From Desulfamplus magnetovallimortis (lineage in GTDB: Bacteria; Desulfobacterota; Desulfobacteria; Desulfobacterales; Desulfobacteraceae), in assembly GCF_900170035.1 (NCBI RefSeq), contig NZ_LT828545.1, positions 76,329 to 140,328 on the forward strand: a DNA stretch of 64,000 nucleotides, given 5' to 3'. The position numbers and the translations under genes are program-made. Position 1 is the first letter of the stretch; each line of letters starts with the position of its first letter. The notes below the pieces were generated by a model, which saw only the letters and a program-made list of their open reading frames with translations, was not told where the DNA came from and did not search any database. Below, one piece after another: positions 985 to 40,738 of this stretch.

Positions 985-1869
985 ATGCAGTTTAGAAAAG
1001 GCTTTGAAGCAGATGAGTTTGCCTGTCTGGTTCAGATTGAGCCGCCTAAGGGGACTGATGTTTCGTTAATGGTTAAACATGCCGTGAATGTCAAGGGGGT
1101 TGCCCACGGCTTCATTGTATCGGAAATGGGAAATGCTGTTATGCGTATGAGTTCGCTTGGAGCATCTCTTGTTCTCCGTGAAAATGGACTGGATGCGGTG
1201 CTTCAGGTCAGTTGTCGGGATAGAAACCGTCTGGCTCTTCAGGGTGATATTCTTGCAGCATCTGCCTGCGGAATTAATGCCGTGATGGTTGTGGCAGGCG
1301 AGGATCCAAGTTTTGGGGATCACCACACTGCAAAGGCTGTGCATGATGTCACCCTTGATGAGTTGCTCAAAGGCTTGGCTAAAATGGAAAGTGGCAAGGA
1401 TATGGCCGGAATTGAACTGTCAGGTTCACCTGATTTTCTCAAGGGCACAACTCTTAATACATGTTTGCGCGGAGCTGACCGTGAAAATGAACTGGATAAG
1501 ATGAAGAGGATGATTGATGCCGGTGTCTCTTTTTTCGTCACCCAGCCTCTATTTGAATTTTCTATGACCCAGCCTTTTCTTAAAACCGCAGAAAAAAACG
1601 GTGTTAAAATCATTCCCACTGTATTGCTTTTAAAATCTTTGGGTATGGCACGCTATATGTCCCGGAATGTGAATAGTGTTAATATGCCTTCTGCCATTGT
1701 TGACAAGATTGTGTCTGCATCTGATAAGGTACGGGAGTGCATGAAGATCGCCAGACAGTTGATTCTCGATGTGAAATCAGAAGGATATGGCGGGGTCAAT
1801 GTATCAACCCTTGGATGGGAAGACAGACTTCCGGAAATTCTTGGAGTTATGGAAGGGTTGAAAGGTTAG
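985..1869 (+). CDS. Methylenetetrahydrofolate reductase-like protein (MetF paralogue 1)
   Basis: This 294-residue protein has the MTHFR TIM-barrel fold pattern: a substrate strand ending QIEPPKG near residue 20, [17 protein letters not shown] near 75-91, [12 protein letters not shown] near 101-112, FVTQPLFE near 184-191 and the [10 protein letters not shown] stretch near 217. In the family this barrel reduces methylene-THF to methyl-THF with FAD. It is slightly shorter and clearly diverged from the two other copies in the window (7550 and 39768), so it may have a different partner or be a structural subunit. A strong GGAGG site precedes the ATG. It is the first gene of the operon, with hdrA following after 38 bases. 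Confidence 0.85.
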
Positions 1870-1907
1870 AAATTTATCCGGATCAGGATTTAGGAGGAAG
1901 GATTTCA

Positions 1908-4900
1908 ATGAGTGAAAGTACATCTTTAAATGATAAAACTGCCGGATCTGTTATGGTTTTAGGTGGTGGTATTGCCGGCATGCAATCCGCCATTGATCTT
2001 GCCAATTCCGGTTATTATGTCTATCTGGTTGAAAAGTCCTATGCCATTGGCGGCATGATGGCCCAACTTGACAAGACCTTTCCCACCAATGACTGTACCA
2101 TGTGAGTCATCTCACCCAAACTGGTCGAGGTCGGCCGGCATCTTAACATTGAGCTTTTAACAAATACCGAACTTGTTGCACTTGACGGACAACAGGGAAA
2201 CTTCACCGCAAGGATCAGGCAAAAACCACGATACGTTGATATTGCAAAATGTACAAGCTGCGGGGAGTGCGCCAAGGTTTGTCCTGTGGATTTCCCAAGT
2301 GAACACAATCAGGGTCTTGCAATGCGCAAGGCCATATTCAAGCAGTATGAGCAGGCTATTCCCGGAGCGTTTGGAATCTCCAAGCGAAGCACAGCACCAT
2401 GCAAGGCTACCTGTCCTGCCCATGTCAGTATTCAGGGTTTTATCGCCCTGATGAATCAGGGAAAATACAGGGAAGCTTTGAAACTCTTCAAGGAAGAGCA
2501 TCCCTTTCCAGGGGCATGCGGTCGTGTCTGTCATCATCCTTGTGAGGCTAAGTGTACCCGTGGGGATGTAGAGGAGCCTCTGGCAATCCAGCATCTTCAC
2601 AGATTCCTTTCTGATACAGATTTTGCATCTGATGAACCTTATGTCCCTGAAATTGCTGAAAAACGGGATGAAAAGGTTGCCATTGTAGGTTCAGGCCCTG
2701 CAGGCTTGACTGCTGCATACTATATGGCACGTAAGGGTTACGGGGTGACAGTATTTGAGAAACTTCCGGTAAAAGGCGGAATGATGGCAGTTGGAATTCC
2801 GGAATATCGCCTTCCCCATGACGAACTTATGCGCGAAATTGAGGTTATTGAAAAACTTGGTGTCGAGATAAAAACCAACGTAGAATTTGGTAAAGATGTC
2901 ACCCTTGATAGCCTTAAATCAGATGGTTACAGCACCCTTTTTATGGCAACAGGGCTACATGGAAGTCGTGGACTTGGCATTGAAGGCGAAAATCTTGACG
3001 GAATCCTTAAGGGTGTAAATTTCTTAAGGGAATCTGCCATAAACAATTGCGAAAAAAACAACAATAACTGCGAAGCCCTTTTGGGCAAGGTTGTTGTTAT
3101 AGGCGGCGGTAACGTGGCTGTGGATGTTGCACTTACTGCCCGTCGTCTTGGTTCAAAGGATGTCACAATGGCATGCCTTGAGGACAGAATCGAGATGCCG
3201 GCCTGGGATTATGAGGTTGAAGAGGCCCTTGAAGAGAAGGTGACTATAAGAAACAGCCTTGGGCCTGCCCGTTTTATTGAGAAGGATGGAGCTGTATGCG
3301 GCGTTGAGTTTAAGCGCTGTACCGCAGTATTTGATGAGCAAGGGCGATTTAACCCCCAGTATGATGAAACAGATCTTACAACAATTGAAGCCGATTATGT
3401 CATTGTGGCCATAGGTCAGATGGCAGAGCTTGAATTTGCAAAGAGTCAGGATATATCTGTCACACCAAGGGGAGGACTTGAGGCTGACCCCGTAACCCTT
3501 CAGACCCCCATACCCTGGGTGTTTGCAGGTGGAGATGTGTTTTACGGCCCGAAATCCGTGGTGGATGCCATTGCCTGCGGCAAGGAGGCTGCTGAAAGTA
3601 TGCATCGTTTTATACATGGAGAGGATCTTGCAGCAGACAGAGAAAAGAGCTTTGAGTTTGAAAAGCCTGATATTTCAAATGAGGCAAAAAGAGCCCGTGT
3701 CCATCCTGCCAAAGTGTGCGTTGAAGAGCGCGAGGGAAATTTCTGTGAAGTGACCTGCGGGCTTTCCGAAGAGGATATCCGCAGGGAATCAGACAGATGT
3801 CTCTCCTGCGGTATCTGCTCAGAGTGTTATCAATGTGTTGATGCCTGTCTTGCAGGTGCCATTGATCATTGTCAGCAGGTTGAATACAAGGAGCTGCCTG
3901 TGGGCTCTGTTATCATGGCGTCAGGAAGCCGTCCCTTTGATCCTTCCGGACTTGGAGATATCTATCTTTACAAGCGTTCGCCAAATGTTATGACAAGCCT
4001 TGAGTTTGAGAGGATTTTAAGTGCAGGCGGACCCACAATGGGACATCTTGAGCGACCGTCAGATGGCAAGGAGCCGGAGAAGATAGCATGGCTTCAGTGC
4101 ATAGGCTCAAGGGATAGCAACAAATGCGGTAATGGCTACTGCTCATCTGTATGCTGCATGTATGCAGTAAAGGATGCCATGATCGCAAAGGAGCACTCCC
4201 ACCACGAACTTGACTGCGTTATCTTTAACATGGATATGCGTACATTTGGCAAGGACTATGAAAAATATTATATAAGAGCCCGGGATGAGGAGAAAGTCCG
4301 GTTTGTGAAATCAAGGATTCATTCGGTTGATGAGGTTCGGGAAACCGGTAACCTTATGCTGACATACGTTGATGAGGCCGGAAATATCTGCAAAGAGGAG
4401 TTTGATATGGTTATCCTGTCCGTGGGATTGACCATAACTGAAGAGAATCGTCAGCTTGCTGCCACAATTGGTGTTGAGCTGGATAAGTATGGATTTGCAA
4501 AAACTTCGCCTTTCAACCCTCTTGAATCATCACGTCCCGGTGTCTTTGTTTCAGGTGTATTTCAGGGTCCCAAGGATATCCCATCCTCTGTTACCGAGGC
4601 AAGCGGTGCTGCCTGTGCAGCAGGAGTTCGCCTGATTGAGGCCAGAAACTCCTGTACAAAGAGTGTGGAGGTTGTGGAGGAGCGGGACATTTCAGATGAA
4701 GAGCCGAGAGTCGGCGTATTTGTCTGCAAGTGCGGTATCAATATTGCCGGAATCGTGGATGTTGATGCTGTCTCAAAGTATGCTGAAACCCTTCCGGATG
4801 TTGTCTATGTAGGAGAAAATCTTTTTACCTGCTCCCAGGATGCCCAGGATAATATGAAAAATATTATTGTTGAAAACCGCCTCAACAGGGTGGTTGTAGC

Positions 4901-6398
4901 CTCCTGTACCCCCAAAACCCATGAAGGCATTTTCATGGATACCCTGGAAAAGAGCGGTCTTAACAAGTACCTCTTTGAGATGGCCAATATCCGAAACCAG
5001 AACTCCTGGATGCATTTCCATGAGCCTGAAAAGGCAACAAAAAAGGCCAAGGATCTTGTGCGAATGGCAGTAGCAAGGGCAGCCACCCTTCATCCACTTC
5101 ATGAAAAACGTATCTCTGTAACTGTAAGAGCACTTGTAATAGGTGGCGGTATAGCTGGTATGACAGCAGCAAAAGGCCTTGCAGATCAGGGTTTTGATGT
5201 TGTTCTGGTGGAGAAGGAGGCACGTCTTGGTGGCCTTGGAAATCAGCTTTACACCACAATTGAAGGGGCAAATATCCGCGAGTTTGTAAAAAAACTTGCA
5301 AGTGAAGTTGAAGCCCATGAAAAGATTCAGGTATTGAAACAGTCCCTGATTGTTGATTTTACAGGTTACAAAGGCAATTTCACCACAGAGGTTCTGGTTG
5401 GACCCGGTATGTATGAGCGCAAGATTGAGCATGGTGTCATGATCATTGCCACAGGTGCAAATGAGTACTCCCCTGAGGAGTATCTCTACAAGGAGAGCGA
5501 CAGGGTTGTAACCCAGCTTGAACTTGGCCATCGACTGGAAGAGCAGGGTGCAGATGATCTTGAACAGGTAGTAATGATTCAATGCGTAGGCTCAAGAAAT
5601 GAGAAAAATGTTAACTGTTCAAGGGTCTGCTGTCAGGGGGCTGTGAAAAATGCCCTTCACATCAAGGAGCTCAACCCTGATGCTGATGTCTTTATTCTTT
5701 ACAGGGATATGAGAATGTACGCCATGCTGGAGGATTACTACACGGAAGCAAGAAACAAAGGTGTTCTTTTCTTTCGCTATGATCCTGAAGATCCGCCGGT
5801 TGTGGAGAAAAATGTGGAAAAGGCAGAAGATGGTTCACTAAAAGAGAGCCTGACAGTTACTTTTACAGATCATGTTATTGGCAGAAAACTTGCTGTGGAT
5901 GCAGATCTTGTGACCTTGAGCGCTGGTGTTGAGGCAGCCGATACCGAGGAGCTTGCAACCATTCTCAAGACCAACAGGAACCAGGAAGGGTTCTTTATTG
6001 AGGCCCATGTTAAACTGCGACCTGTGGATGCAGCCACAGAAGGTATTTTTATTTGCGGTACTGCCCACGGTCCAAAGTTGATTACAGAGACCATTGCGCA
6101 GGCAATGGCAGCGGCATCAAGGGCAACAACCTTCCTCTCCCAGGATGAATTGACCCTGTCTGCTGTTACGGCTGAGGTAAATCCTGAAAATTGCGCTTCC
6201 TGTTTGATCTGTGTAAGATCCTGTCCATACGGGGTTCCAATAATCAATGAAGATGGCGTCAGTTATATAGATGCTGCCCTTTGTCATGGATGTGGAGTCT
6301 GTGCTTCGGAGTGTCCTGCAAAAACCATCAAACTCAACTGGTATGAAGATAATCAGTTGCTCAGCAAGGTTGAATCCCTGCTGGAGGGGGTAATTTAA
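1908..6398 (+). CDS. hdrA: Giant selenocysteine-containing HdrA-like flavoprotein with internal GltD-type domain
   Basis: Read through the TGA at 2103-2105 as selenocysteine, the product has 1496 residues. Order: FAD-binding GGGIAGM and the [20 protein letters not shown] motif (Sec66, where HdrA normally has Cys); a 4Fe-4S motif near 114-125; an inserted GltD/NfnB-like NAD(P)H oxidoreductase module at about 160-580 ([13 protein letters not shown], then VGSGPAGL and GGGNVAVD dinucleotide sites); the rest of the first HdrA unit; a [17 protein letters not shown] HdrA N-domain near 940-1020; a second FAD unit from about 1070; and two 4Fe-4S motifs near 1427-1475. The start is the ATG after AGGAGG at 1892-1897. 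HdrA proteins bifurcate or confurcate electrons; with MetV, MetF and MvhD next door it probably links methylene-THF reduction to NAD(P)H and ferredoxin. A conventional ORF starting at 2286 would miss the first 126 residues. Confidence 0.88.
2103..2138 (+). promoter_or_regulatory. Selenocysteine UGA and candidate SECIS hairpin of hdrA
   Basis: The TGA at 2103-2105 is followed by a hairpin in the coding sequence: 2121-2127 (CTGGTCG) pairs with 2132-2138 (CGGCCGG), including G-U pairs, around the loop AGGU at 2128-2131. The loop GG lies 24-25 bases after the UGA, and bacterial SECIS elements place a G-rich apical loop at about this distance (the E. coli fdhF loop is AGGUCU). Folding was done by eye. 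Confidence 0.6.
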
Positions 6399-6399
6399 C

Positions 6400-6840
6400 A
6401 TGTCAAAAGATTTTGAACCGGTCATTCTGGCCTTCTGCTGTAATTACTGAGGGTATTCTGCTGCGGACCTGGCAGGTTCCATGAGATTGAAATGCCCTGC
6501 AAACTTCAGAATCATCAGGTTGCCCTGCACCGGCAAGATTGATGTGATTCATATCCTCAGAGCCTTTGAAAAAGGGGCTGATGGCGTTTATGTGGTGGGA
6601 TGCATGGAAGGAGATTGTCATTTCAAGACAGGCAATTTCCGTGCAAGAAAAAGGGTGGCACAGGCTGCCGCAATTCTTGATAAGATTGGTGTGGGAGGAG
6701 ATCGAGTAAAAATGTATAATCTCTCTTCCGGAGAAGGCCCGCTTTTTGCTCAATACTCCATTGAGATGGACGAAAAGATAAGGGCACTTGGACCAAGTCC
6801 TATCAAGGTTGCCCTTCAGGCCAAAAAAGAGGCTGCGTAA
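6400..6840 (+). CDS. mvhD: Selenocysteine-containing MvhD-like iron-sulfur protein
   Basis: With the TGA at 6448-6450 read as selenocysteine, a 146-residue MvhD/FrhD family protein begins at the ATG one base after the hdrA stop. The N-terminal motif is FCCNY-U-GYSAADLAG (Sec17 at the family's cysteine), followed by RLPCTGKIDVIHILRAF and the GCMEGDCHF cysteine motif near residues 67-75, typical of the 2Fe-2S MvhD fold. MvhD passes electrons between a dehydrogenase and HdrA. The tight coupling to hdrA and the downstream metV/metF suggests that it wires the reductase to HdrA. A conventional ORF beginning at 6481 would lose the first 27 residues, including the cluster ligands. In Methanococcus-type archaea both HdrA and the MvhD homologue VhuD are known selenoproteins. 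Confidence 0.9.
6448..6480 (+). promoter_or_regulatory. Selenocysteine UGA and candidate SECIS hairpin of mvhD
   Basis: After the TGA at 6448-6450, GGACCT at 6465-6470 pairs with AGG at 6474-6476 and TCC at 6478-6480, leaving a bulged U at 6477 and a GGC loop at 6471-6473. The loop GG is 21-22 bases after the UGA. A bulged U and a GG loop are features of the bacterial SECIS, although in fdhF the bulge is on the 5' strand and here it is on the 3' strand. Confidence 0.6.
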
Positions 6841-6884
6841 AAATTTTTATGGAATAATTCCAATATCCAATATGAGGTTTATAG

Positions 6885-7553
6885 ATGATAATAGCAGATA
6901 AAAAGCCCATTGAAGAGATTATCCAGGAAGTTAAGGATTACGACAGGCTTCTGGTTCTGGGATGTAATGAATGTGTCACTGTTTGCGAAGCCGGTGGAAA
7001 AAAGGAGGTAGAGGTTCTTGCATCTGCCTTAAGAATGCACTTCATCAAGGAGGGTAAAGAGAAAAAAATTGATGAGAGAACCCTGGAGCGTCAGTGTGAC
7101 CATGAATATCTTGAAGAGATTCGTGATGTCATTGATCAGTATGATGCAGTTCTATCCCTTGCATGTGGTGTAGGGGTTCAGTTTACAGCGGAAAAATATC
7201 ACTCAACCCCGCTGATTCCAGGTGTCAATACCTGTTTTCTCGGAGCAAATGAGCAGCGTGGCATGTGGACTGAGCGCTGTCAGGCCTGTGGAGCGTGTAT
7301 TTTGGCCAGAACCGGTGGTATATGCCCCATTTCGAGATGTGCCAAGAGGGTCATGAATGGCCCCTGCGGCGGTTCAAGTGCGGGCAAATGCGAAATCAAC
7401 AAAGATCTGGATTGTGCATGGCAGTTGATCATCGACAGGCTCAGGGATCTGGGCAGGCTTGATGATTATGAAATTGTAGCACCCATAAAGGACTGGTCAA
7501 CCGAAAGATCCGGTGGCCCAAGAACAGTTGTCAGGGAGGATGTGCAGGTATGA
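6885..7553 (+). CDS. metV: MetV: zinc/iron-sulfur MTHFR C-terminal-domain protein
   Basis: The 222-residue product matches the MTHFR_C (MetV) family found beside metF in acetogens and sulfate reducers. Cysteine motifs are visible at the N-terminus (GCNECVTVCEAGG, about residues 26-38), in the middle (ERQCDHEY, SLACGVGVQF) and towards the C-terminus (CQACGACILARTGGICP, then MNGPCGGSSAGKC). The stop of metV overlaps the metF start by four bases (ATGA at 7550), indicating coupled translation. MetV is thought to form a core with MetF and pass electrons to it; upstream HdrA/MvhD would be its donors here. A paralogue is at 39039. Confidence 0.9.
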   Translation: MIIADKKPIEEIIQEVKDYDRLLVLGCNECVTVCEAGGKKEVEVLASALRMHFIKEGKEKKIDERTLERQCDHEYLEEIRDVIDQYDAVLSLACGVGVQFTAEKYHSTPLIPGVNTCFLGANEQRGMWTERCQACGACILARTGGICPISRCAKRVMNGPCGGSSAGKCEINKDLDCAWQLIIDRLRDLGRLDDYEIVAPIKDWSTERSGGPRTVVREDVQV

Positions 7554-8479
7554 ATCTGAAAACTTCAAGCAAGCTGGAAAAGGTATTGAAATCGGGACAT
7601 ATCGCTGTTACCTCCGAGTGTGGTCCGCCAAGGGGAAGTGATCCAAAAGCTGTTACGGAAAAGGGCAAGCTGATAAAAGATCATGTGGACGTTGTCAATA
7701 TAACAGACAACCAGACTGCCATGACCCGCATGTGCTCCCTTGCTGCCTGTATCCATCTCAAACAGATGGGTATAGAGCCTATGCTTCAGATGGTAACACG
7801 GGATAGAAACCGTATTGCCCTGCAAAGCGATATTCTGGGCGCGGCCTCCTTTGACATTCATAATATGCTCTGTCTTTCCGGTGACCACCAGAGTTTTGGA
7901 GACTGTGCCCAGGGCCAGAATGTCCATGACATTGACTCAATGCAGCTTCTGCAGACAGTCCGTCACATGAGAGATAATGGAAAGTTCCTTGGCGGAGATG
8001 ACATAAAGCGGCCACCAGATATATTTGTGGGTGCTGCTGCCAATCCATTTGCAGATCCCTTTGAGGTCAGGGTTCCAAGGCTTGCCAAAAAAGTGGCTTG
8101 CGGAGCCGAGTTCATCCAGACCCAGTGTATCTATAACCTTGACAAGTTTGAGGAGTGGATGCGCAGGGTAAGGGAGAGGGGACTCCATGAAAAGGTTTTT
8201 ATCCTTGCCGGCATGACACCCATGAAATCCGCAGGAATGGCACGTTACATGAAAAACCGTGTGCCTGGAATGGATGTGCCTGACGAGGTGATAAGCCGCA
8301 TGGCAGGGGTTCCCAAGGAGAGGCAGCCACAGGAGGGAATTGATATTTGCGTGGAGGCCATTCAAAGGCTAAAAGAGGTGGAAGGAGTTGCAGGGTTCCA
8401 TATCATGGCCATTGAATGGGAGGAGAAAGTTCCCGAGATAGTTGAAAGAAGCGGGCTTTATCCAAGGCCCCAGGTTTGA
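7550..8479 (+). CDS. metF: Methylenetetrahydrofolate reductase MetF (paralogue 2)
   Basis: This 309-residue MTHFR barrel has TSECGPPRGSD at the start (catalytic-side Glu), VTRDRNRIALQSDILGA near 82-98, CLSGDHQSFGDC near 111-122, an AAANPFADPFE segment, FIQTQCIYN near 190 and GMTPMKSAGMARYMKN near 220-235. It is very similar to the copy at 39768 and more distant from the one at 985. It overlaps metV by four bases and ends the operon. It should reduce methylene-THF to methyl-THF in the methyl branch of the Wood-Ljungdahl pathway, or catalyse the reverse in oxidative metabolism. No NADH-binding extension is visible, in line with an electron supply through MetV. Confidence 0.92.
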   Translation: MNLKTSSKLEKVLKSGHIAVTSECGPPRGSDPKAVTEKGKLIKDHVDVVNITDNQTAMTRMCSLAACIHLKQMGIEPMLQMVTRDRNRIALQSDILGAASFDIHNMLCLSGDHQSFGDCAQGQNVHDIDSMQLLQTVRHMRDNGKFLGGDDIKRPPDIFVGAAANPFADPFEVRVPRLAKKVACGAEFIQTQCIYNLDKFEEWMRRVRERGLHEKVFILAGMTPMKSAGMARYMKNRVPGMDVPDEVISRMAGVPKERQPQEGIDICVEAIQRLKEVEGVAGFHIMAIEWEEKVPEIVERSGLYPRPQV

Positions 8480-8529: not shown

Positions 8530-8635
8530 GGCATCCTTCATTTACCAGTTGACACTTTTCGGATTAGCATCCCGGTTTTCAGAAGATTTCCCACAAAAAA
8601 GTGTCAACTACTTTTGGCGATGTATGAAGGATGCC
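8530..8635. repeat. Repeat family B, copy 1
   Basis: Hairpin-like unit bounded by GGCATCCTTCATTTACC and its mirror ATGAAGGATGCC, with inner arms GTTGACACTTTT and AAAAAGTGTCAAC. With the next copy it fills the space between the convergent metF and hydrolase genes, where such stems could end transcription from both sides. Confidence 0.75.
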
Positions 8636-8654
8636 AAAAAATGCATCTATTTCC

Positions 8655-8760
8655 GGCATCCTTCATTTGCCAGTTTACACTTTTTGGAGCCACATTCCCA
8701 TTTTTAGGGAATTATCTCAAAAAAAGTGTCAACTACTTTTGATGGATTCTGAAGGATGCC
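8655..8760. repeat. Repeat family B, copy 2
   Basis: Same layout as the preceding unit and only 19 bases after it: outer arms GGCATCCTTCAT / GAAGGATGCC, inner arms TTTACACTTTTT / AAAAAAAGTGTCAAC. The central spacers of the two units differ, so this is a tandem pair of related elements and not a recent perfect duplication. Confidence 0.75.
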
Positions 8761-8818
8761 CTATTTCCACGGTAAAACAGAATTGGCGAAGGTTACTACA
8801 GTTCATACACCCCCTACA

Positions 8819-9571
8819 TCACGGGATAGTTGCTACTGCTGCAAATTCAGGCTCGTGGAGTGGCAGAAGGATATCGGCCATATCCCGGATTTGCAGCATT
8901 ATATCATAGGCTTCGCAGGAATTGACAAGGGTTCCCGGTGGAATAACTTCCATCTCCATGGCTTTTATTTCCAGTGGGGGATAAAAGTTTTCCTTAATTA
9001 CACAAAACCCTGTGATAATGGCTTTCCCTTCTTTTGTATTAATGATGACACTCATCCCACCATCGGTGTGAACAGGCGTGTGCATGCATGTGATTCCCGG
9101 AAGAATCTGGGTATCTTCACTGAGAACCTGTAATTGGCCGTTCTCCTCAACATCCTCAATATAATCTTCAAGGTAACGGAAATCCAGTGGATGGGGATCA
9201 TGGATACGCTTCAATTCCTTTTCATGGACATAAATGACAGCATTGGTGCATTTATAGTCATTTTCGCAGTGGTCATTGTGAAGATGGGTGTGTATTATGA
9301 TATCAATCCCTTCCGGAGTTAATCCCCAATTGGCAAGTCCTTCTTCAAAGGTATAAATTTTACCGCCAATGGCATCTTCCCGATCTTTGGACTGAATGGG
9401 ACTCATTTCACCTGTGTCCACAAGTATGGTCTTGTCACCGCCTTCAATGTACCAGCAGTATATTGGAATGGTGTAACTCTCTCCCGCTCCGTGCTGGTAG
9501 GTCATCATGCTCTTGTCAAACACCTTGGTTCCCATCACAATTGGGTGTATTTTATAGTTATTCATCTGCAT
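8819..9571 (-). CDS. Metallo-beta-lactamase-fold hydrolase (N-acyl homoserine lactonase-like)
   Basis: The 250-residue protein carries the zinc motif HTHLHNDH (residues 94-101, giving H96-x-H98-x-D100-H101), a downstream HTPVHTDGG with the third-histidine pattern, and VDTGE near 51-55. The spacing resembles the lactonase-like branch of the superfamily, but the substrate cannot be read from sequence. No signal peptide is seen. The gene starts 19 bases after the transporter/Usp gene on the same strand, so the two are probably one operon. AAGGATGA precedes the ATG at 9571; an in-frame ATG at 9565 has better spacing and could be the true start. Confidence 0.85.
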   Translation of the reverse strand: MQMNNYKIHPIVMGTKVFDKSMMTYQHGAGESYTIPIYCWYIEGGDKTILVDTGEMSPIQSKDREDAIGGKIYTFEEGLANWGLTPEGIDIIIHTHLHNDHCENDYKCTNAVIYVHEKELKRIHDPHPLDFRYLEDYIEDVEENGQLQVLSEDTQILPGITCMHTPVHTDGGMSVIINTKEGKAIITGFCVIKENFYPPLEIKAMEMEVIPPGTLVNSCEAYDIMLQIRDMADILLPLHEPEFAAVATIP

Positions 9572-16753: not shown

Positions 16754-17098
16754 TTATCTCCTGCTCAAATAGTCTTTCTTTCTTTTTTCCGCTAATTTTA
16801 TCTCTTTTTGGGGAGTTTTCCGGGTTTTCTTTTGAAAGGAGTTTGTCAAAATGATCAATTCACGCTCGTGAATAAAACCAAGAAGACGAAAAATATTCTT
16901 TCCAACACTTACCCTTACTTCCCAGATATCATCTGTGTTGACCAGTTTTTTAAAGTATTTAGTTGAGATGTTTCGAGTCTCTCGTATTAACTTCAAAACC
17001 CAAGTAATTTTAGTAACTTGAGAATCAGAAAGAGAATCCAGGTGTTCTTCTACAGGGCATTTCCCTGTTACGGTCTTGTAAAATGATATCAATTTCAT
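16754..17098 (-). CDS. RelE/HigB-like toxin (Gp49 family)
   Basis: From the ATG at 17098 the product has 114 residues ([20 protein letters not shown]...). The central [38 protein letters not shown] pattern is that of HigB/Gp49-type ribosome-dependent mRNA interferases. The longer frame from 17152 is rejected: its extra 18 residues are hydrophobic nonsense overlapping the probable promoter. The ATG has no good ribosome site and lies only a few bases after the -10 box, so the message may be leaderless. The antitoxin gene follows directly. Confidence 0.8.
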
Positions 17099-17106
17099 GG
17101 AGATAA

Positions 17107-17133
17107 AGTATACATATATGTGAACAGTGTCAA
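17107..17133 (-). promoter_or_regulatory. Candidate promoter/operator of the higBA-like module
   Basis: On the minus strand TTGACA (17133-17128) and TATACT (17112-17107) are near-consensus boxes separated by 15 bases, shorter than ideal. The spacer contains the symmetric CATATATG, a possible autorepressor site. Its presence inside the BREX operon means the module can be transcribed alone. Confidence 0.45.
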
Positions 17134-17170
17134 GAAACTTAAAAAGGAGCAATTGAAAGGAAACAATTAT

Positions 17171-19696
17171 TCACACCATATAATCCGTCTCAAGGTTAAT
17201 GCTGTTATACGCTGCCATGGTAACAGGATTCAATGCCTTGACTGTAAATTTACCCTCAAAATTCATCTGCATTTTCAAGGTCAGGCGAATCTGCTCACCC
17301 CTTTTGATGAACACGGTTCCTGTGGTTGGATTGACAACACCACCAGCCTTTGCCTCTCCCACCACATTGCCCTTTTTGTCATGGGCCTCCACCAGAATCT
17401 CAAGGTCAGAACCGGCCGAGAAGAGATCTCCTGCCACCATGATATCAATAACAGGAAAACGGACGCTGATCTTTTTTGCCCCATTCTTGTAGGAGATGAC
17501 AACGGATTGGGGTTCATTATCAGCATCATTTTTATTTTCCCCGTTCAAAGAGAGGGTAAGCACCGGAACAATGGCTTCCTGCAATGATGCACCCCCATGA
17601 AAATAGATAAGCCCATCACGGTACGGAGCCATGCTTTTGGGGCCTGCAATACTTGAATAATCACCACGAATACCAAGCTTTTCTGCTGGAATCAAAAAAT
17701 TATAGAAATCTTCAGACCCTTTACCCATCATGCAGCGATCATGGACATTGAGCCAGTCACCCTGGGGTTTACTGCAAACATCCCCTGCTTCGGAATAGGT
17801 GTTGAGGAAAAAACCATGATCTGTGGCAATCACCACATCCTGAAATCCCATTTTTTCCAGCTTATGAATGGCCACACGAATGCGTTTTAAGGTATCATGA
17901 ATCAACCCAATGGTAGTTTCCGGATTGGATTCCATGTGGTTGTCAATATCCACACTGCGAAGCACCAGAAGCTCCACACTTTCAGGGATTGTTTTTTTGG
18001 AATTGATAAAATCAGCAAGCTTCATCTCATTGAACCGCTGGCCAAATCGTTTTTTGAACACCTCCATCCGCTTGCTCACGTTGGGTATCTCAACATCCTC
18101 AAACATGGGGATAATGCCCTTATCCCCTTTTTTAAGACTCAAAGCCGTGCCAGCACCAGGCAGAAGGCTTGCCATGCCAACAGGCGTGATGGTGGGAAAT
18201 GCGGCACATGCAGCTTTAAGATCAACCTGGCCATTTTCTGAAAGCTGCTTTTCCAGCTCAACCCCAAGCTCGTACCGAAGGGCATCAATGAGCAGATAGG
18301 CAACCCGGTGTCCGCTGACCATTAATTTAGGGGCAATCAACTTGTCAAAAACATCCATGTTATGCAGCATGGCACCCGGGGGCCACCCCTCTTTTTCTAA
18401 GTGTCTGATAAAGATGGTCTGAACCTTGTCCACTAGACCACGGTATCGTAACCGTGCATGATCAATCACACCCGCCATTATGTCGGTGTTATCAATGTAA
18501 TCGGAAACAGACTGCTCAAACTCACGCTGGAGGCGATCTGCTTCACGCAAGCCGGTTAAATAAAAATCAATTATAGCTCCCATATTTGCAGAGTGTCTGC
18601 CAAGTGCCCGCAGAAGATCATCGCAGGATGTAACAAGTTGAAGGGCAGAAGAGACAAGCCCCCATTGGGCCTGACTTTCACCCTTTCCCACCCATACGGT
18701 TTTGGAGTGCCTCTCAATTATCAGACGGGTTTTGTCCCTGTTGTTCTTGATGATTGAATCAATGCCCTGTTTTAAGAAAGTACGCTCTTCAAAGGGGAAT
18801 GTGTCTCTGTCACCCAGATCCTTGATATCAGAGCAGAGCAAGGGCAGATCCAGAGCCTTTTCAATGGTCTCAGCCCTGTCAATATAGGTTGTCTGGGTGC
18901 GAAGATCGTTTCTGAGTCCATCGCACAGGTCAAAAACCAGTGACTTTGCCTCCTTGGGGGCACAGGGCACATCTGATAACCCTTGTGGTAAATCACCTGG
19001 AAAATCAAATGCAAATTCACTGAAGAGCAGAAACCGCCACAACTCGTCAGCAATGGCAGCCCATGATTTTATATCTGTTTTCAGTTTCAAGCCAAGGCAA
19101 ACCATGACAAGGTCTGATGCTTCACTGAGCCATGATTTCTGTCTTTTCAGTTTTGCCATCTCGCCCCCATCAGGAGAGAGCAGAACCAACAAGATGTCCC
19201 GTGCAGATTCCTTATTTAGAAGTGCCCTGAGATTGGGCCATTTTTTTCCGCTGCCAACGGCATCAATTACAGCAAAACCCGGATTTGGATCATTATCAAA
19301 TATTTTCCGAATCTCTGTGGCGTGGTCAGGTTTGGCTTTGATACAAAGATCCATATATCCGTCACCGTCACCTTCCGGAAATATGGTGCCGCAGGCCGTA
19401 TAGATGGAGAAGGGGTCGTGCTGTCTCTCTTCATCTGTCATGGGTTTCTTTACGGGAATATAGACGACCATCCCCTTTACCTGGGGGTTATTTTCTCCAA
19501 GCTGTTTGAATGTGGAAAGTGCAGCTTCACGGCTCTCGATACTGCTTTGTGATGCGTCAACCACCTTTATATGCTCATCAGCAAGTTCCAGGCAGACATC
19601 CCGATATCTGCCATCGGGATCATAGACCGTCAGAACCCCTTTTTTCTGGAGACGTGGGAGCAGAGTCTGTGTTTGAATAAATTGTGCAATACTCAT
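17171..19696 (-). CDS. pglZ: BREX alkaline-phosphatase-like protein PglZ
   Basis: 841 residues, the usual PglZ size. The PglZ domain (alkaline phosphatase superfamily) is visible in the second half: YLLIDALRYELGVELEKQL, FPTITPVGMASLLPGA, KKGDKGIIPMFEDV and the metal-binding IATDHGFFLN. A C-terminal beta-rich region with EAIVPVLTLSLNGE follows. PglZ is a core BREX component needed, with PglX, for host-DNA methylation and phage exclusion. It starts three bases after the pglX stop, so the pair is translationally linked. A toxin-antitoxin module separates it from brxL. Confidence 0.93.
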   Translation of the reverse strand: MSIAQFIQTQTLLPRLQKKGVLTVYDPDGRYRDVCLELADEHIKVVDASQSSIESREAALSTFKQLGENNPQVKGMVVYIPVKKPMTDEERQHDPFSIYTACGTIFPEGDGDGYMDLCIKAKPDHATEIRKIFDNDPNPGFAVIDAVGSGKKWPNLRALLNKESARDILLVLLSPDGGEMAKLKRQKSWLSEASDLVMVCLGLKLKTDIKSWAAIADELWRFLLFSEFAFDFPGDLPQGLSDVPCAPKEAKSLVFDLCDGLRNDLRTQTTYIDRAETIEKALDLPLLCSDIKDLGDRDTFPFEERTFLKQGIDSIIKNNRDKTRLIIERHSKTVWVGKGESQAQWGLVSSALQLVTSCDDLLRALGRHSANMGAIIDFYLTGLREADRLQREFEQSVSDYIDNTDIMAGVIDHARLRYRGLVDKVQTIFIRHLEKEGWPPGAMLHNMDVFDKLIAPKLMVSGHRVAYLLIDALRYELGVELEKQLSENGQVDLKAACAAFPTITPVGMASLLPGAGTALSLKKGDKGIIPMFEDVEIPNVSKRMEVFKKRFGQRFNEMKLADFINSKKTIPESVELLVLRSVDIDNHMESNPETTIGLIHDTLKRIRVAIHKLEKMGFQDVVIATDHGFFLNTYSEAGDVCSKPQGDWLNVHDRCMMGKGSEDFYNFLIPAEKLGIRGDYSSIAGPKSMAPYRDGLIYFHGGASLQEAIVPVLTLSLNGENKNDADNEPQSVVISYKNGAKKISVRFPVIDIMVAGDLFSAGSDLEILVEAHDKKGNVVGEAKAGGVVNPTTGTVFIKRGEQIRLTLKMQMNFEGKFTVKALNPVTMAAYNSINLETDYMV

Positions 19697-19699
19697 GGG

Positions 19700-22600
19700 T
19701 CAGGAGTCCTTTTGTTTTGCCTTTTTACGCCTTTTTTTCTTTGGCTTTTCAGGTGGTTCTTCATACAGATCTTCAAGATCATGGGCAATGGCAAGGGATT
19801 TGTCTGTTCTGCATTTTTCCGTTACCCGTTCCGGCCATATGCTGTAGGCAAGGTGTGCCCAGTCATAATCGCCTTTTTCCAGCTTTTCCCAGGTCTCCTT
19901 TAACTTTTTCTGCCAGGTTTTGTGCTGGAAGAGTTTCCATAATGGGGATGCTGTGATTTGTACGCCGTCGTTCAGGTTGGGTTTCCAGAACTTGGCGATG
20001 CGGAGGAGTTCGTCCCTGAAATCTTTCAGTTCCGCTTCCAGATCGGTGAACTTGGTCAACTCTTTTTCCTCGCTGGTGGTGCGGTCGGACTTACTACGAA
20101 GATCTTTCAGATCGTTAGATACATTTTTGAGATTGGGTTCTACAAAATCGTTGACGCAGGTGTAGAGAGTTTCACCAGAAATTTTCGGATAATAAACCCA
20201 AAGAGTATAACCTTCTGAAATCGTAGATAATGGCCAATAGATGGGAGCACTTCGACGGCTCTTGCTGTAGGTTTTCAGATGCTGACTAAAGCAGTCTCTT
20301 TGCAGCCAACGTTGTATGTCAGTCGAGACCTCTACTTTTACATGGGATAAGACTTTCTCAACAAGGTGAGCAAGATCGTTGGGATGGTTCACATCTTCCG
20401 GCAGAATTCCACAATGTTTTAAAAATGGGTCATCGTTTTCGGGAAGCATTCCCGGGCTGATGGATGGTAATGGATCAAAGGGTTCCGGTTCTGCCGGCAT
20501 TGACCGTTCCCCGGTGGCAAGTCGAATATCAAAACGGCCAAAAATTACACCTAAGCTCCAACTCAAAATAGAGTCTATTTGATCCTTATCCAATGGAGCA
20601 ACAGTCTCCCCGTCCCCATCTTCCAGGTCATTTTTCTCATGTTCATCTGTTTTCTGACCTTGCAAGGCGGCTAAACGGTCTTTTTCTGAAAAGCCATACA
20701 GATCAAAGGCAATCTCATCAATCTCTTTTTGAATAGCCGCCAACTTGCGTTCAATCTCTGAAGGAACAAAATGACTTTGTCGGGTCAGCAACGCTTCCGG
20801 CAAAAAAAAGGCATGGGAGGTTTCTTCCGTAGTATCCAAAGATCGCTTAACAGACCATGCACGACGTGCCAAGTCAGCAAGTTGTTTTTCCTGATCGGAT
20901 GTTAAAATAGGAAGCGGTGTTTTCTTAATGACCCCAACTTCATATGAACGTGCCGCCGCATCGGCAGCAGCTAATTGAAGTGACACAAGTAATCCGAATG
21001 CTTTATTATTCATTAAACTCAGTAATGCTAACAAGGCATTGCTTGCGTTATCCTCTACAAATGCAGCCGGACCTTTATGACCAAAAATGCAATTTCGAGG
21101 CATAGCCCGTAAACCAAATCCACTCGTTGTACGCAATGGCCAAGTGAGTCCGGGTCGGAGGTATAAAGCAGTATTCTGAGGGCGCGAAAGTAATTTTCCC
21201 GATCTTTTATCGAATAAATTTCGAATTTCTTTTCCTTCATATTTCCAATTTACCGTCAAATACACATCCGAGTAAAATGGCGAATATGCTCCACCTTTGG
21301 CAAAATCTTTCCAGCCTTTTCCAGACTGCTCCCACCAGGTTCGCACAAATCGAAAATCCTCTGCGGTTGCAAGACCTTGACTGGCGGTTCGTTTTTCTGA
21401 TTCAAATGCTGGAAATTTTTCAAACACAGCTCTTACGGAATCACTGACCCAATAGGCGAAGGGTGCTCCCGGAACCGCGAGGAAGGAATCCGATGCGACC
21501 TGGAAAACTCGGTTGCCATCCTTCCCATACCGGAAAGCATCACAGGAAGCGGGCAAGTTCTCCGCTTTGTCTTTGTTGGCGAGCAGGCGGAGAAATGAGG
21601 TTTTGACGGATGTTTTGACAGGGGGCTGGTCATCGGTTTTGGCCGCAGTTTTATCTGATTGTTTGACCAGCACATAGGCGGCAGCTTCCACCATGGCATC
21701 ATCCATTACGCCATAGCCCAGATCGGCCATGACCTCTGGTTTGCCTGTCCCCAACACCACCTGTTCACGCCATTTTTGGAAACTGGAAAGAAAAAAGCAG
21801 GTGCGGGATGTAATCGCCCCAATACGTCCGCCGGAGCGGAGAAGAGCCAGGCCACGCTCAACAAAGATAGCGAGTAAATCATTTTTGCTGCACGGATATG
21901 CTTTGGAAAGGGGTTGCTTGCTGTTTGCCGCCAAAGCTCCGAAGGGCGGATTCATCAAGACCACATCAAATTTTTCATTACAAAGATCAATCAGTCGCAA
22001 CCCCTGCAAGGCATCTTCTGCATACAAATGACCTTGATAAGAGGAAAGCCCTGCCGTTGAAAAAGTGCGGAGTGCCTTACGCAAACGCTTTTCTGCGGAT
22101 TCCCATTGCTGAATATCTTCTTGTTTGAACAGGCCGCCATGTTCACCGAATATTTTTTTTATTAGGCGAGGAAGCTCGGTCTCCGCTTTTAAAATGATGC
22201 CTTGTTCTGGCATTCTGTCAAGAAGTGTCAATGTTTGATCAAACAGTTCTGCATCGAGATCATCCAGGTTATTTATAAATTGATCCCGCAATTCAGACTC
22301 CCTGGGAGGTGCAACTGCCGGAACCACATTCCCCTGACCAATGAGCGGTCGGTTTTGAGCTTTAACATCAGCGTCATGCCAGGCTCGCTGTGCACGCAGC
22401 CAAAGTGCCAATGAAGCGATCTGAGCGGCACGGGGATCAATGTCCACACCGTAAATATTGTGCTCAATAATGAGTTTTGGCACATCCAGCAGATAGTCAT
22501 GGCGGTTGGCATAGGTTTTACAGAGTGGTTTTAGCCCTTGATCCGATGAAGTGGAAATGTTCAATGAACCTGCACCGTGCTCCTGTTCCCATTCCCATGC

Positions 22601-23545
22601 TTCGTGGTAAATGTCCAGAAACAAATCAAAGGCATATAAACCAAAGTGCATTGAGCCGCAGGCCGGGTCTAACAATCTTAATGTTCGCGGATCTCTTGGA
22701 TTGCCTGAGCCTTCCAGATTTTCATCGTGTTTAACCATCAGATAGCGACAACGGTGTCTCAAAGATGTTTTATCACCAAGGGCATCCACCCATAGTCGCC
22801 CAAGGGTGTTGTCTGTCAAAAACTCCACCACATAACGAGGGGTAAAAAACTGATTCCTGACAGCAAGTTCCCTGCTGTTGCGGGGTGCCTGGGAAGCATC
22901 CCGCATCTTTTTTCGCTCTTCTTTGGAGTTGAAATATTGATAAATCCACCCGATGGTCTCATCTTCAGCCCAAAGCTTTTCAATATCTGGATGGTTTATA
23001 AGATCAAGCAGTTCCAGTAATTTGGACTCCTTGGGAAAGAGTCGCCCCTGTGGTGAAAACCTGTCAAACAGCACCTTTAAATCCAGGGAAAACTCATCAA
23101 AAATACTGAAGATATAATGCCTGTAAGCATCCCCTGACTCACCCAGAGCTGATCCCGCCATATAGGAGTAAAGCTGAAATCCCTGGGACTGATACCCCTT
23201 GCCAATGGATTCCATTAAAATACCACGGGCTTCAGCCATGCGGAGAGCTGCCATGCGGTTGAGGATTGTAAACGCCTGCTCACGGACAATTCGGGAGAGT
23301 ACCTCTTTTTTTCCTGAACCTGGGGTTGTGGCAAGATAGTGCTCCATGGTTTCCCGCAGGATTCCTGCGGTTTCCCTTCCGGCATCGTCAAGGAAATTGA
23401 GATTGGAAAGCTTGGAAACCTCTCCTGTCTCCGGGTTCAAACCGAACTCATTTTGAAGCTGCCTTGTAAATTCGTCACTTAATAGAGTTCTTGCATCAGT
23501 TACAAAACGCTGGAGCCTGTTGCGGGTGGTCTGATCAAATGCCAT
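19700..23545 (-). CDS. pglX: BREX adenine-specific DNA methyltransferase PglX
   Basis: 1281 residues. The N-terminal helical region (RNRLQRFVTDARTLLSDEF) and RNQFFTPRYVVEFLTDNTLGRLW lead to the N6-adenine methyltransferase core: SAM motif LLDPACGSMHFGLYAFDLF and the catalytic NPPF at residues 532-535, followed by SRTCFFLSSFQKW. The C-terminal half should be the target-recognition and partner-binding part. In BREX, PglX methylates one strand of a non-palindromic hexamer so that host DNA is spared. The TGs and stop positions show one intact frame; no phase-variable homopolymer tract stands out. It sits between the brnTA insertion and pglZ. Confidence 0.93.
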   Translation of the reverse strand: MAFDQTTRNRLQRFVTDARTLLSDEFTRQLQNEFGLNPETGEVSKLSNLNFLDDAGRETAGILRETMEHYLATTPGSGKKEVLSRIVREQAFTILNRMAALRMAEARGILMESIGKGYQSQGFQLYSYMAGSALGESGDAYRHYIFSIFDEFSLDLKVLFDRFSPQGRLFPKESKLLELLDLINHPDIEKLWAEDETIGWIYQYFNSKEERKKMRDASQAPRNSRELAVRNQFFTPRYVVEFLTDNTLGRLWVDALGDKTSLRHRCRYLMVKHDENLEGSGNPRDPRTLRLLDPACGSMHFGLYAFDLFLDIYHEAWEWEQEHGAGSLNISTSSDQGLKPLCKTYANRHDYLLDVPKLIIEHNIYGVDIDPRAAQIASLALWLRAQRAWHDADVKAQNRPLIGQGNVVPAVAPPRESELRDQFINNLDDLDAELFDQTLTLLDRMPEQGIILKAETELPRLIKKIFGEHGGLFKQEDIQQWESAEKRLRKALRTFSTAGLSSYQGHLYAEDALQGLRLIDLCNEKFDVVLMNPPFGALAANSKQPLSKAYPCSKNDLLAIFVERGLALLRSGGRIGAITSRTCFFLSSFQKWREQVVLGTGKPEVMADLGYGVMDDAMVEAAAYVLVKQSDKTAAKTDDQPPVKTSVKTSFLRLLANKDKAENLPASCDAFRYGKDGNRVFQVASDSFLAVPGAPFAYWVSDSVRAVFEKFPAFESEKRTASQGLATAEDFRFVRTWWEQSGKGWKDFAKGGAYSPFYSDVYLTVNWKYEGKEIRNLFDKRSGKLLSRPQNTALYLRPGLTWPLRTTSGFGLRAMPRNCIFGHKGPAAFVEDNASNALLALLSLMNNKAFGLLVSLQLAAADAAARSYEVGVIKKTPLPILTSDQEKQLADLARRAWSVKRSLDTTEETSHAFFLPEALLTRQSHFVPSEIERKLAAIQKEIDEIAFDLYGFSEKDRLAALQGQKTDEHEKNDLEDGDGETVAPLDKDQIDSILSWSLGVIFGRFDIRLATGERSMPAEPEPFDPLPSISPGMLPENDDPFLKHCGILPEDVNHPNDLAHLVEKVLSHVKVEVSTDIQRWLQRDCFSQHLKTYSKSRRSAPIYWPLSTISEGYTLWVYYPKISGETLYTCVNDFVEPNLKNVSNDLKDLRSKSDRTTSEEKELTKFTDLEAELKDFRDELLRIAKFWKPNLNDGVQITASPLWKLFQHKTWQKKLKETWEKLEKGDYDWAHLAYSIWPERVTEKCRTDKSLAIAHDLEDLYEEPPEKPKKKRRKKAKQKDS

Positions 23546-23621
23546 ATGATTTTAATCCTGAATGTTATTCTGTTTTGTTATCTTCAGAAATATTCCTGCA
23601 TAATAATGTAGGGGAAACCGT

Positions 23622-23888
23622 TCACTTTGAATTTACATACTCTTGAAGAATATTATTAATTTCAGTTTGCCAACCTTTACCACGGGCCTTGAAAAAATCT
23701 ACAATTTCACTATTCAGTCGAATAGTGAGCTGTTTTTTGGGATTGGTTTTTGGTATGCGTCCACGCTTTGGTAATGCATCCAATAGCTCTTTGGGTAAGA
23801 CTTCGGATACCGGACGCATGTTCTTGAAATCTTCGGAAGTCAACTCCCTGACTTCACCGTCATTATCGATCAATGGTTGCCTGCTCAT
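23622..23888 (-). CDS. brnA: BrnA-family antitoxin
   Basis: 88 residues, ending with the BrnA pattern KKQLTIRLNSEIVDFFKARGKGWQTEINNILQEYV, a ribbon-helix-helix DNA-binding domain; the N-terminal half (VRELTSEDFKNMRPVSEVLP) would wrap the toxin. The gene overlaps the brnT toxin gene by 26 bases. BrnA normally represses the pair and blocks BrnT. The module lies between brxC and pglX. Confidence 0.9.
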   Translation of the reverse strand: MSRQPLIDNDGEVRELTSEDFKNMRPVSEVLPKELLDALPKRGRIPKTNPKKQLTIRLNSEIVDFFKARGKGWQTEINNILQEYVNSK

Positions 23889-24141
23889 ATCTTTTTACCT
23901 CCCGTGAATTGGCTTTCCTGAAGCTGATGACCCTGATTCCGCCATGAACAGGCGTAAAACAGAGAATGTGCAATCTCTTATGAAGATAGATTGTGGCGAC
24001 AAACCGTGTCTCTGGGTAATCCTTTCGTACATCTTCAATAATCTGTGCTGTACTCCAATCCAGGTCTGCTGCCTGTTCAAAAGAGAGGTTGCGATTATCA
24101 ATATTCCATTTGTTTTTGTCTGAATCATATTCAATCTTCAT
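23863..24141 (-). CDS. brnT: BrnT-family ribonuclease toxin
   Basis: 92 residues with the BrnT (RelE-like fold) signatures: EYDSDKNKWNIDNRNLSFEQAADLDW at the start, ETRFVATIYLHKRLHILCFTPVHGGIRVISFRKANSREVKRYEQA at the end. BrnT cleaves RNA and stops translation until BrnA binds it. The ATG lies only a few bases after a strong -10 box and has no Shine-Dalgarno sequence, so translation may be leaderless. Insertion between two core BREX genes on the same strand suggests it stabilises the operon. Confidence 0.9.
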   Translation of the reverse strand: MKIEYDSDKNKWNIDNRNLSFEQAADLDWSTAQIIEDVRKDYPETRFVATIYLHKRLHILCFTPVHGGIRVISFRKANSREVKRYEQATIDR

Positions 24142-24151
24142 AAGTATATTT

Positions 24152-24180
24152 ATTGTAGGGAGAACAAATCAGAGCGTCAA
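24152..24180 (-). promoter_or_regulatory. Promoter of brnTA within the BREX operon
   Basis: Reading the minus strand, TTGACG (24180-24175), a 17-base spacer and TACAAT (24157-24152) form a near-consensus promoter. Transcription would begin about seven bases later, almost at the brnT ATG (24141). Confidence 0.6.
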
Positions 24181-24220
24181 GGATAAACCAAATAGACAGG
24201 GTAGCCACAGGAAGCTGCCC

Positions 24221-35503: not shown

Positions 35504-35878
35504 TTAAAGCTCAGCTTTGAATTCAATTTTTCCTTCACCAAATGCAGGTTCAATTATTCTATGAACCCCGTGACCTGGATTTGATTCTTTAAAAACATGT
35601 ATTAACTGATATTTCGATAAAATTTTAAGATCATTATTTAAACTCACTGGGCTTCTTTGCATATCTGATGCTAATTCAGAAAAAAAGACTTTTCTTTTTG
35701 ATCTTAAGTATTGAACTATTTTTACTCTTTCAGGCTTCAATATCGCCATCAATTCCGCCGGTTCAACCCAGATAATATTTTTTTTTGTGACTTTTTTACC
35801 TTGATCTATTTCTTTTGCTGTCTCTTTGGCAGAAGAAAAGAAATCAGATATTGAGCCAGCTTTGAATTCAATACTCAT
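35504..35878 (-). CDS. TumA-like winged-helix antitoxin
   Basis: 124 residues. A winged-helix domain of the ArsR type is visible from about residue 45: ILKPERVKIVQYLRSKRKVFFSELASDMQRSPVSLNNDLKILSKYQLI. The gene overlaps the upstream TumE-like gene by four bases (ATGA). In this pair the HTH protein neutralises the toxin and represses the operon. Assignment rests on the partner. Confidence 0.75.
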   Translation of the reverse strand: MSIEFKAGSISDFFSSAKETAKEIDQGKKVTKKNIIWVEPAELMAILKPERVKIVQYLRSKRKVFFSELASDMQRSPVSLNNDLKILSKYQLIHVFKESNPGHGVHRIIEPAFGEGKIEFKAEL

Positions 35879-36189
35879 TTTATAAACTCCTTGATTTCCT
35901 TTTCAAAACGTTCAAGCAGATTTTCATAGCACACAAAATCATACACTTCAGATATTTCACCAAAATAGTGCCTGTGATGAAAGCTATGGGTATTGTCGTA
36001 TCCAATGACTCGACCATTGTCACCAGAGAAAATTTGATGGTTAATATATGCCATACTGTATTTTACAATTTCACTGTTTTCATTTTCCCATGCTTCAATT
36101 TTAATAAGTCCGCCACCTCTTTTGGGCTTTACAGGGAATTGTTCTGAAACAACTTTTTTGAATTTGACTCTTGCTCTTTTGTCATTCAT
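35875..36189 (-). CDS. TumE-like toxin (DUF6516)
   Basis: 104 residues. The DUF6516/TumE signature is clear in KYSMAYINHQIFSGDNGRVIGYDNTHSFHHRHYFGEI; the histidine-rich segment probably forms the active site. The family is described as the toxin half of TumE-TumA modules. The gene comes first and shares four bases with the antitoxin. An inverted repeat lies just upstream. Confidence 0.75.
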   Translation of the reverse strand: MNDKRARVKFKKVVSEQFPVKPKRGGGLIKIEAWENENSEIVKYSMAYINHQIFSGDNGRVIGYDNTHSFHHRHYFGEISEVYDFVCYENLLERFEKEIKEFIK

Positions 36190-38190: not shown

Positions 38191-38220
38191 GTGCTTCTCC
38201 TTTTGGATCTGGCTTTTTCA

Positions 38221-38340
38221 GGTTCGCTTCGGTATAAAACAGGTTCGGTTTGGTATAAAACAGGTTCGGTTTGGTATAAAACAGGTTCGGTTTGGTATAA
38301 AATAGTTTCGGTTTGGTATAAAATTAGGTTCGGTTTGGTA
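38221..38340. repeat. Tandem repeat, about 21-bp period
   Basis: About six copies of a unit like GGTTCGGTTTGGTATAAAACA in head-to-tail order, becoming less regular at the right end, then joining a family A element. It lies just upstream of the PAS kinase start. It is non-coding. Confidence 0.85.
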
Positions 38341-38514
38341 CTCAAAATCGGGATCTTATAGCATTTCTATCAGTTGTTGCATTTGTCTGAATCAGGATAG
38401 CCAGGATGAAAATGATGTTCAGGATAAATAATCCTGCCTTATCCTGTTAATCCTGGGTATCTTGATTCAGACACTATTGACAAGGTTCAAAAGATCATAG
38501 GTGTCGTTTTTGAG
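38341..38514. repeat. Family A element next to the tandem repeat
   Basis: Ends CTCAAAATCGGG and TGTCGTTTTTGAG; TTGGTA occurs directly outside both ends (38335-38340 and 38515-38520). The left flank is itself the last unit of the 21-bp tandem repeat. Confidence 0.8.
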
Positions 38515-39710: not shown

Positions 39711-39767
39711 TGAGTAACAGTTGATGAGCGGTATTTATTTTGACAGAGATTTTAGGAGAGATCAGTT

Positions 39768-40691: not shown

Positions 40692-40738
40692 TCGGATGAG
40701 AATCTACAACTCTTGAGATATATAAGGAGTTTTTGACA

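Follow-up and report, generated by a model that had tools for sequence, protein, structure and literature searches.

The gene hdrL raises the question of whether a UGA codon inside its reading frame ends translation or encodes selenocysteine (Sec), and what the selenium would do in the protein. hdrL lies in a stretch of 64,000 nucleotides from Desulfamplus magnetovallimortis (contig NZ_LT828545.1, positions 76,329 to 140,328), which was analysed as a whole and is called the window below; all coordinates are those of the window. The gene occupies 1908..6398 on the plus strand and, translated with its one internal UGA as Sec66, encodes an HdrA-GltD-HdrA fusion of 1,496 residues with matches to NCBIfam and Pfam models and to structures of the Protein Data Bank (PDB). 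The gene that follows it, mvhD, has a UGA of its own. Judged from sequence comparison, both genes would almost certainly be decoded with Sec, and the identity of the two proteins is held with the same confidence. The remaining point of interest is whether the Sec of HdrL ligates an iron-sulfur (Fe-S) cluster.

The in-frame UGA codon of hdrL

Translation is likely to start at the ATG at 1908, which follows a probable ribosome-binding site, AGGAGG (1892..1897, plus strand), and leaves 65 residues before the UGA. Translation of 1908-6398 confirmed the statement of a preliminary description of this DNA that the frame is open on either side of the TGA at 2103-2105 (plus strand), as well as its forecast of a split annotation, since the open reading frames (ORFs) under translation table 11 were 1737-2105 (122 residues) and 2286-6398 (1370 residues). 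The in-frame position and the comparison of orthologs placed the UGA in a CxxU motif. At this position, which the same description had assigned to a cysteine of the HdrA motif, all 22 paralogs had Cys, as did the solved HdrA chains shown.

The conservation of the UGA was followed in two sets of sequences. The family set comprised 86 genomes, 80 of which had a match at the cut-off used, and the ortholog group consisted of 55 places, one per genome, with E values up to 4.1e-66 (the next match was at 1.7e-59). The second set comprised the best 80 of 369 confirmed named-record loci, which among the matches listed are near relatives and not a sample of all HdrA; the nearest were metagenome-assembled genomes of Desulfamplus, in a set that may exclude the genome of the window itself. 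Each of the 55 family orthologs of hdrL had one TGA; of the 80 named-record loci, 79 had TGA and the exception (L206) had TGC. That the UGA is a true stop or a sequencing error, leaving a short fragment with a downstream ORF or a pseudogene, has next to no probability: standard gene calling does yield two ORFs, but the same UGA recurs throughout the orthologs, the frame 3' of it is conserved with the Fe-S cysteines retained, and the parts 5' and 3' of it align to the same HdrA domain. A misread TGC or TGT at 2103, the error that the preliminary description had allowed for, is thus very unlikely. In three paralog matches (G024, G017, and G056) a TAA was considered as a recoded codon and rejected, as it sits upstream of the start ATG.

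Codon conservation at the predicted selenocysteine insertion sequence

A bacterial-type selenocysteine insertion sequence (SECIS) was assigned to codons +5 to +11 after the UGA (2118..2138, plus strand) on the basis of the fold, of a run of single codons in 40 orthologs, and of the variability of the same codons in 22 Cys paralogs. The hairpin CUGGUCG-AGGU-CGGCCGG, with the stem 2121-2127/2132-2138 and the loop AGGU at 2128-2131, was the minimum-energy fold. It starts 15 nt past the UGA, so that the earlier suggestion of an AGGU-loop hairpin at bacterial SECIS spacing held, with the support of codon conservation. A conserved G in the loop of bacterial SECIS elements is named in PMC1794560.

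For the codon analysis, 44 sequences of the TM-UGA-VISPKL type including the window were collected, and those that extended over 900 codons or more, counted from the UGA, were used, 40 in all; the residue count begins 57 codons 5' of the UGA. Among 596 columns with an invariant amino acid and a degenerate codon, only 10 used a single codon, and six of these fell in the hairpin (+5, +6, and +8 to +11), while the others were isolated two-fold codons of Tyr, Phe, Phe, and Gln. When the invariant columns were restricted to amino acids with at least 4 synonymous codons, 4 of 329 were single-codon columns and all 4 were located in the hairpin. With 3% amino-acid change allowed, the sole run of at least three single-codon columns was AAA CTG GTC GAG GTC GGC CGG at +5 to +11. 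All seven of these codons varied in the 22 Cys paralogs. The same codon pattern was observed in another set, of 44 Sec loci, partly from the same organisms, and in one ortholog (L145) a change of Val to Ala at +7 converted the U-G pair 2125-2134 to C-G. Codons that are frozen next to a UGA and variable in Cys paralogs point to selection on the RNA where the UGA is present, and this freeze makes the SECIS function evident from sequence alone.

mvhD, a second predicted selenoprotein gene

The predicted selenoprotein gene mvhD (mvhD/flpD; 6400..6840, plus strand), which the preliminary description did not mention, starts 2 bases past the end of the hdrL stop codon (6398). Its read-through frame encodes 146 residues with a predicted Sec17, and the part 3' of the UGA matched Pfam FlpD. 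The UGA (6448..6450, plus strand) lies in the context FCCNY-UGA-GYSAADLAG, thus in a CNYU motif of the C-x-x-U kind, and was assigned to Sec from the read-through frame and the UGA codons of orthologs. When a motif left free at the UGA residue was applied to the 80 loci and the window, UGA was present in 45/45 matching loci, the window included; in the other loci, the motif was unmatched or the sequence ended before the gene. In the group L073-L086 the same kind of motif gave UGA in 14/14. The putative SECIS segment, codons +5 to +9 with the sequence GCG GAC CTG GCA GGT (6463..6477, plus strand), was represented by a single codon at each position in 52/52 sequences collected with a motif that required UGA.

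Other HdrL operons (L068 at 4878, L070 at 4888, L071, and the second of L072 at 10470) contained an MvhD in which this place reads CNWC and a UGA lies at a second site, VSG-UGA-HPG, and the first HdrL-partner MvhD in L072 had Cys at both sites. By its sequences, MvhD is a family with Sec predicted at two alternative places.

Selenocysteine machinery of the host genome

The genome of the window contained selA (595.6 bits against a cut-off of 267.9), selB (361.5 against 242.25), selD (370.4 against 125), which itself has one in-frame TGA, and a tRNA-Sec outside the window (76.6 against 47), for which ARAGORN gave the anticodon tca. The preliminary description would have given way to a genome devoid of Sec machinery; selA, selB, selD, and tRNA-Sec(UCA) were all found. 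Within the window, no tRNA genes were found and the Rfam scan at gathering thresholds gave no match. Among the 55 genomes with a UGA-containing ortholog, selA was matched in 53, in 52 of them above the cut-off; the match in G009 (63% complete) was partial and below it. The host is probably a sulfate reducer, to judge from its nearest relatives.

Insertion of another amino acid at the UGA, for example Trp, through general suppression or an altered code is highly improbable. No point in its support was found, and it is opposed by the complete Sec machinery, by the frozen SECIS codons, and by the Cys, not Trp, of the paralogs and solved HdrA chains. Moreover, UGA serves as an ordinary stop in the window, where it terminates 14 of the 31 larger ORFs picked from 38.

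The genome of the window also holds Cys paralogs. A further HdrA-like gene of the same genome (L003, G000:C20) had one in-frame TGA and an altered hairpin segment like those of L118 and L119; the minimum-energy fold of its segment differs from the window hairpin. A mechanical screen of the window for in-frame TGA codons returned 12 candidates, with hdrL and mvhD among them. The six read-through stretches that were scanned, which contain 7 of the other 10 TGA candidates, resembled neighbouring genes or upstream non-coding DNA by Pfam and were rejected. No further selenoprotein was seen by Pfam in these six stretches, the candidates 8568-8909, 23470-23907, and 23863-24294 being outside that scan.

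Domain architecture of HdrL and a possible role of Sec66

By its sequence matches, the HdrL protein is made up of two joined HdrA halves, the first of which holds a GltD/NfnB insert: four stretches (residues 16-159, 637-856, 931-1104, and 1345-1492) each matched a stretch of the solved HdrA chain 5odc_A and were accompanied by GltD/Nfn-type matches. This is the architecture called HdrL in Desulfobacterium autotrophicum (PMC2702500). The "giant HdrA" of the preliminary description is therefore an HdrA with a UGA, as stated, yet not a plain HdrA. NCBIfam assigned HdrA2/HdrA and GltD-type models to the product, and Pfam assigned Pyr_redox_2, Fer4_20, and Fer4. The HdrA2 score of 922 against 1100 was under the cut-offs for full-length HdrA, which is put down to the rearranged fusion. 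In the second half, residues 931-1104 correspond to 2-175 of 5odc_A, and the N-terminal-type Fe-S domain at residues ~931-1073 (4698..5126, plus strand) contains Cys 940, 942, 975, and 1000, which were kept in 40/40 orthologs.

The insert, a GltD/NfnB-like NAD(P)H-binding flavoprotein at residues ~161-572 (2388..3623, plus strand), was delimited by Fer4_20 at 161-240 and Pyr_redox_2 at 256-556, and its residues ~163-572 matched NfnA, NfnI alpha, and the glutamate synthase small chain in the comparison with solved structures. Its second Rossmann motif is GGGNVA, followed by an acidic residue in CLE. An acidic residue of this kind is typical of NADH binding. The GGGNVA-type motif is NADP-like by the rule given in PMC12054007, and the insert may accordingly use NADH or NADPH.

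The alignment of residues 16-159 with 147-290 of 5odc_A has no gap and places Sec66 at residue 197. For the solved HdrABC-MvhADG complex, PMC9012536 states that an HdrA supplies its Cys197 as a ligand to the N-terminal Fe-S cluster of its partner, and that in fused HdrAs Cys197 and the N-terminal domain belong to separate halves; we infer that 5odc is the structure meant there, with the same numbering. In HdrL, position 66 belongs to the first half, which lacks the N-terminal Fe-S domain; that domain is present in the second half, and the 80 residues of the second half that match the Sec66 region contained no Cys in any of the 39 orthologs with data (L148 is cut there). The order of the halves is the reverse of that in the archaeal fusions HdrA3 and HdrA4 of PMC9012536.

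The alternative that survives best accepts the decoding of Sec66 but has it work together with Cys63 in a redox-active CxxU motif, similar to thioredoxin reductase, and not as an Fe-S ligand. The motif itself suits such a pair, Cys63 was conserved in 40/40 orthologs, and reviews give the HdrA motif as CxxU. It is opposed by the description of the aligned Cys197 in the solved complex, where this residue ligates a cluster (PMC9012536), and by the fusion itself, which retains the ligand position in one half and the cluster domain in the other. We consider the redox pair a serious candidate, although a somewhat doubtful one.

Because of the alignment with Cys197 and the location of ligand position and cluster domain in opposite halves, we propose, tentatively, that Sec66 may act in trans as a ligand of the Fe-S cluster in the N-terminal-type domain of the second half, with both HdrA copies in one chain. 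In its wider form, which is held with similar reserve, the proposal is that Sec66 could be a genetically encoded selenolate that ligates a [4Fe-4S] cluster across an intrachain pseudo-dimer interface, tuning the low-potential electron exit of a bifurcating enzyme linked to NAD(P)H and MetFV, while the second Sec, in MvhD, would lie near the electron entry. No statement that the Sec of HdrA is an Fe-S cluster ligand was found in the open-access literature searched, most subscription papers being outside its scope, and contacts between Sec and metals are described in general as unproven (PMC13188914). If the proposal is true, enzymes of the HdrL type would be natural selenolate-ligated Fe-S proteins.

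Several observations weigh against the interpretation given here. The energy of the hdrL hairpin is ordinary (z -1.63), with 12 of 200 shuffles folding equally well or better, and the hairpin is near-invariant, with too little variation for covariation; the mvhD hairpin at 6465-6479 was no better than shuffles (z +0.29). Codon conservation, not fold energy, is the decisive evidence for a predicted SECIS. Two of the 55 genomes with the UGA, G043 (92% complete) and G077 (70%), gave no selA match, and since 80 of the 86 family genomes did give one, the co-occurrence of selA with the UGA is only a weak test. hdrBC was not found in the operon of the window (985-8479; elsewhere in the genome it was not sought), unlike in the Moorella complex. 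An AlphaFold2 model of residues 1-1100 built with 34 sequences had a mean predicted local distance difference test score (pLDDT) of 76.5 and a predicted template modelling score of 0.53; the pLDDT was under 50 at residues 47-78 and 109-161, so the model gives no check on the position of Sec66.

The operon and neighbouring genes

The gene order at 985-8479 is metF, hdrL, mvhD, metV, and metF, all on the plus strand. Pfam matched the metF-type gene 5' of hdrL (985..1869) to MTHFR, the metV-type gene (6885..7553) to DUF5981, the MTHFR C-terminal family, and the second metF (7550..8479) to MTHFR; no long plus-strand frames were found in 1-984. The order of the C-terminal part of hdrL, mvhD, metV, and metF was kept in all 51 loci whose sequence continued for 7 kb or more past the UGA; a metF-type gene directly 5' of hdrL was present in 28 of the 73 loci with room for it. 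The gap between mvhD and metV was 1.4-1.6 kb in 7 of the 57 loci with both matches. The genome G057 had the full order metF-hdrL-mvhD-metV-metF with UGA in both hdrL and mvhD.

From these features, hdrL, mvhD, metF, and metV would form one operon in a Sec-decoding, probably sulfate-reducing bacterium, in which SelB and tRNA-Sec are predicted to read one UGA in each of hdrL and mvhD as Sec by means of a bacterial SECIS within the gene. HdrL would be a probable two-flavin hub of electron bifurcation or confurcation. Homologs and the operon suggest NAD(P)H as the electron partner of the GltD insert and MvhD as the protein that donates electrons to the HdrA flavin or accepts them from it, and the operon and the Moorella complex suggest that MetFV couples HdrL to methylene-/methyl-tetrahydrofolate of the Wood-Ljungdahl pathway.

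Elsewhere in the window, a second metV-metF cluster with an FAD oxidoreductase and a joined ferredoxin-FlpD protein was observed at 39039-43488. On the minus strand, an Eco57I-type methylase, a PglZ-domain protein, and a Gp49-like (DUF891) gene follow one another at 16754-23545 and resemble a BREX-type defence cluster, and a TumE-like toxin gene is located at 35875-36189. Short tandem repeats, ccgaacctgttttataccaaa, lie at ~38200-38345, immediately upstream of a minus-strand gene for a PAS histidine kinase.

Comparison with known systems

The pair of Sec-containing HdrL and MvhD is already known as a kind; the predicted pair described here has unusually clear sequence evidence. Deltaproteobacterial selenoproteins of the HdrA and FrhD families were described in 2006 (PMC1794560), HdrL selenoproteins and Sec-MvhD of Desulfobacterium autotrophicum in 2009 (PMC2702500), UGA-containing genes for HdrA and MvhD of Desulfococcus multivorans in 2016 (PMC5109826), and marine deltaproteobacterial selenoproteins including heterodisulfide reductase and methyl-viologen-reducing hydrogenase in 2021 (PMC8318568). 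The preliminary description had named Methanococcus-type archaea as the precedent for HdrA selenoproteins. Archaeal cases are indeed known, and in Methanococcales both HdrA and the delta subunit, VhuD, contain Sec (PMC2933860), but the nearest precedents are in Deltaproteobacteria.

D. autotrophicum HRM2 resembles the window in the Hdr/glutamate-synthase fusions with Sec, HdrL1 and HdrL3, followed by mvhD, and possesses four mvhD genes with Sec and the full sel machinery (PMC2702500). It differs in that HdrL1 lies beside dsrABC, and no description of a metF-linked HdrL was found in PMC2702500, figures and supplements aside. Syntrophobacter, Syntrophus, Moorella, and others share the bacterial Sec families HdrA and FrhD, with duplications and fusions of hdrA, whereas the operons described contain frhG, frhA, and glpC, not metF/metV (PMC1794560). 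MetF, MetV, a fused HdrA, and MvhD are found in one cluster in the MetFV-HdrABC-MvhD complex of Moorella thermoacetica, which differs from the window operon by its HdrBC (both as cited in PMC9012536). The solved archaeal HdrA is without the GltD insert of HdrL. Among archaeal HdrAs, PMC12054007 distinguishes type III, with a GltD insert, from type II, which is double with two thioredoxin-reductase domains; HdrL of the window has both features and, in addition, Sec.

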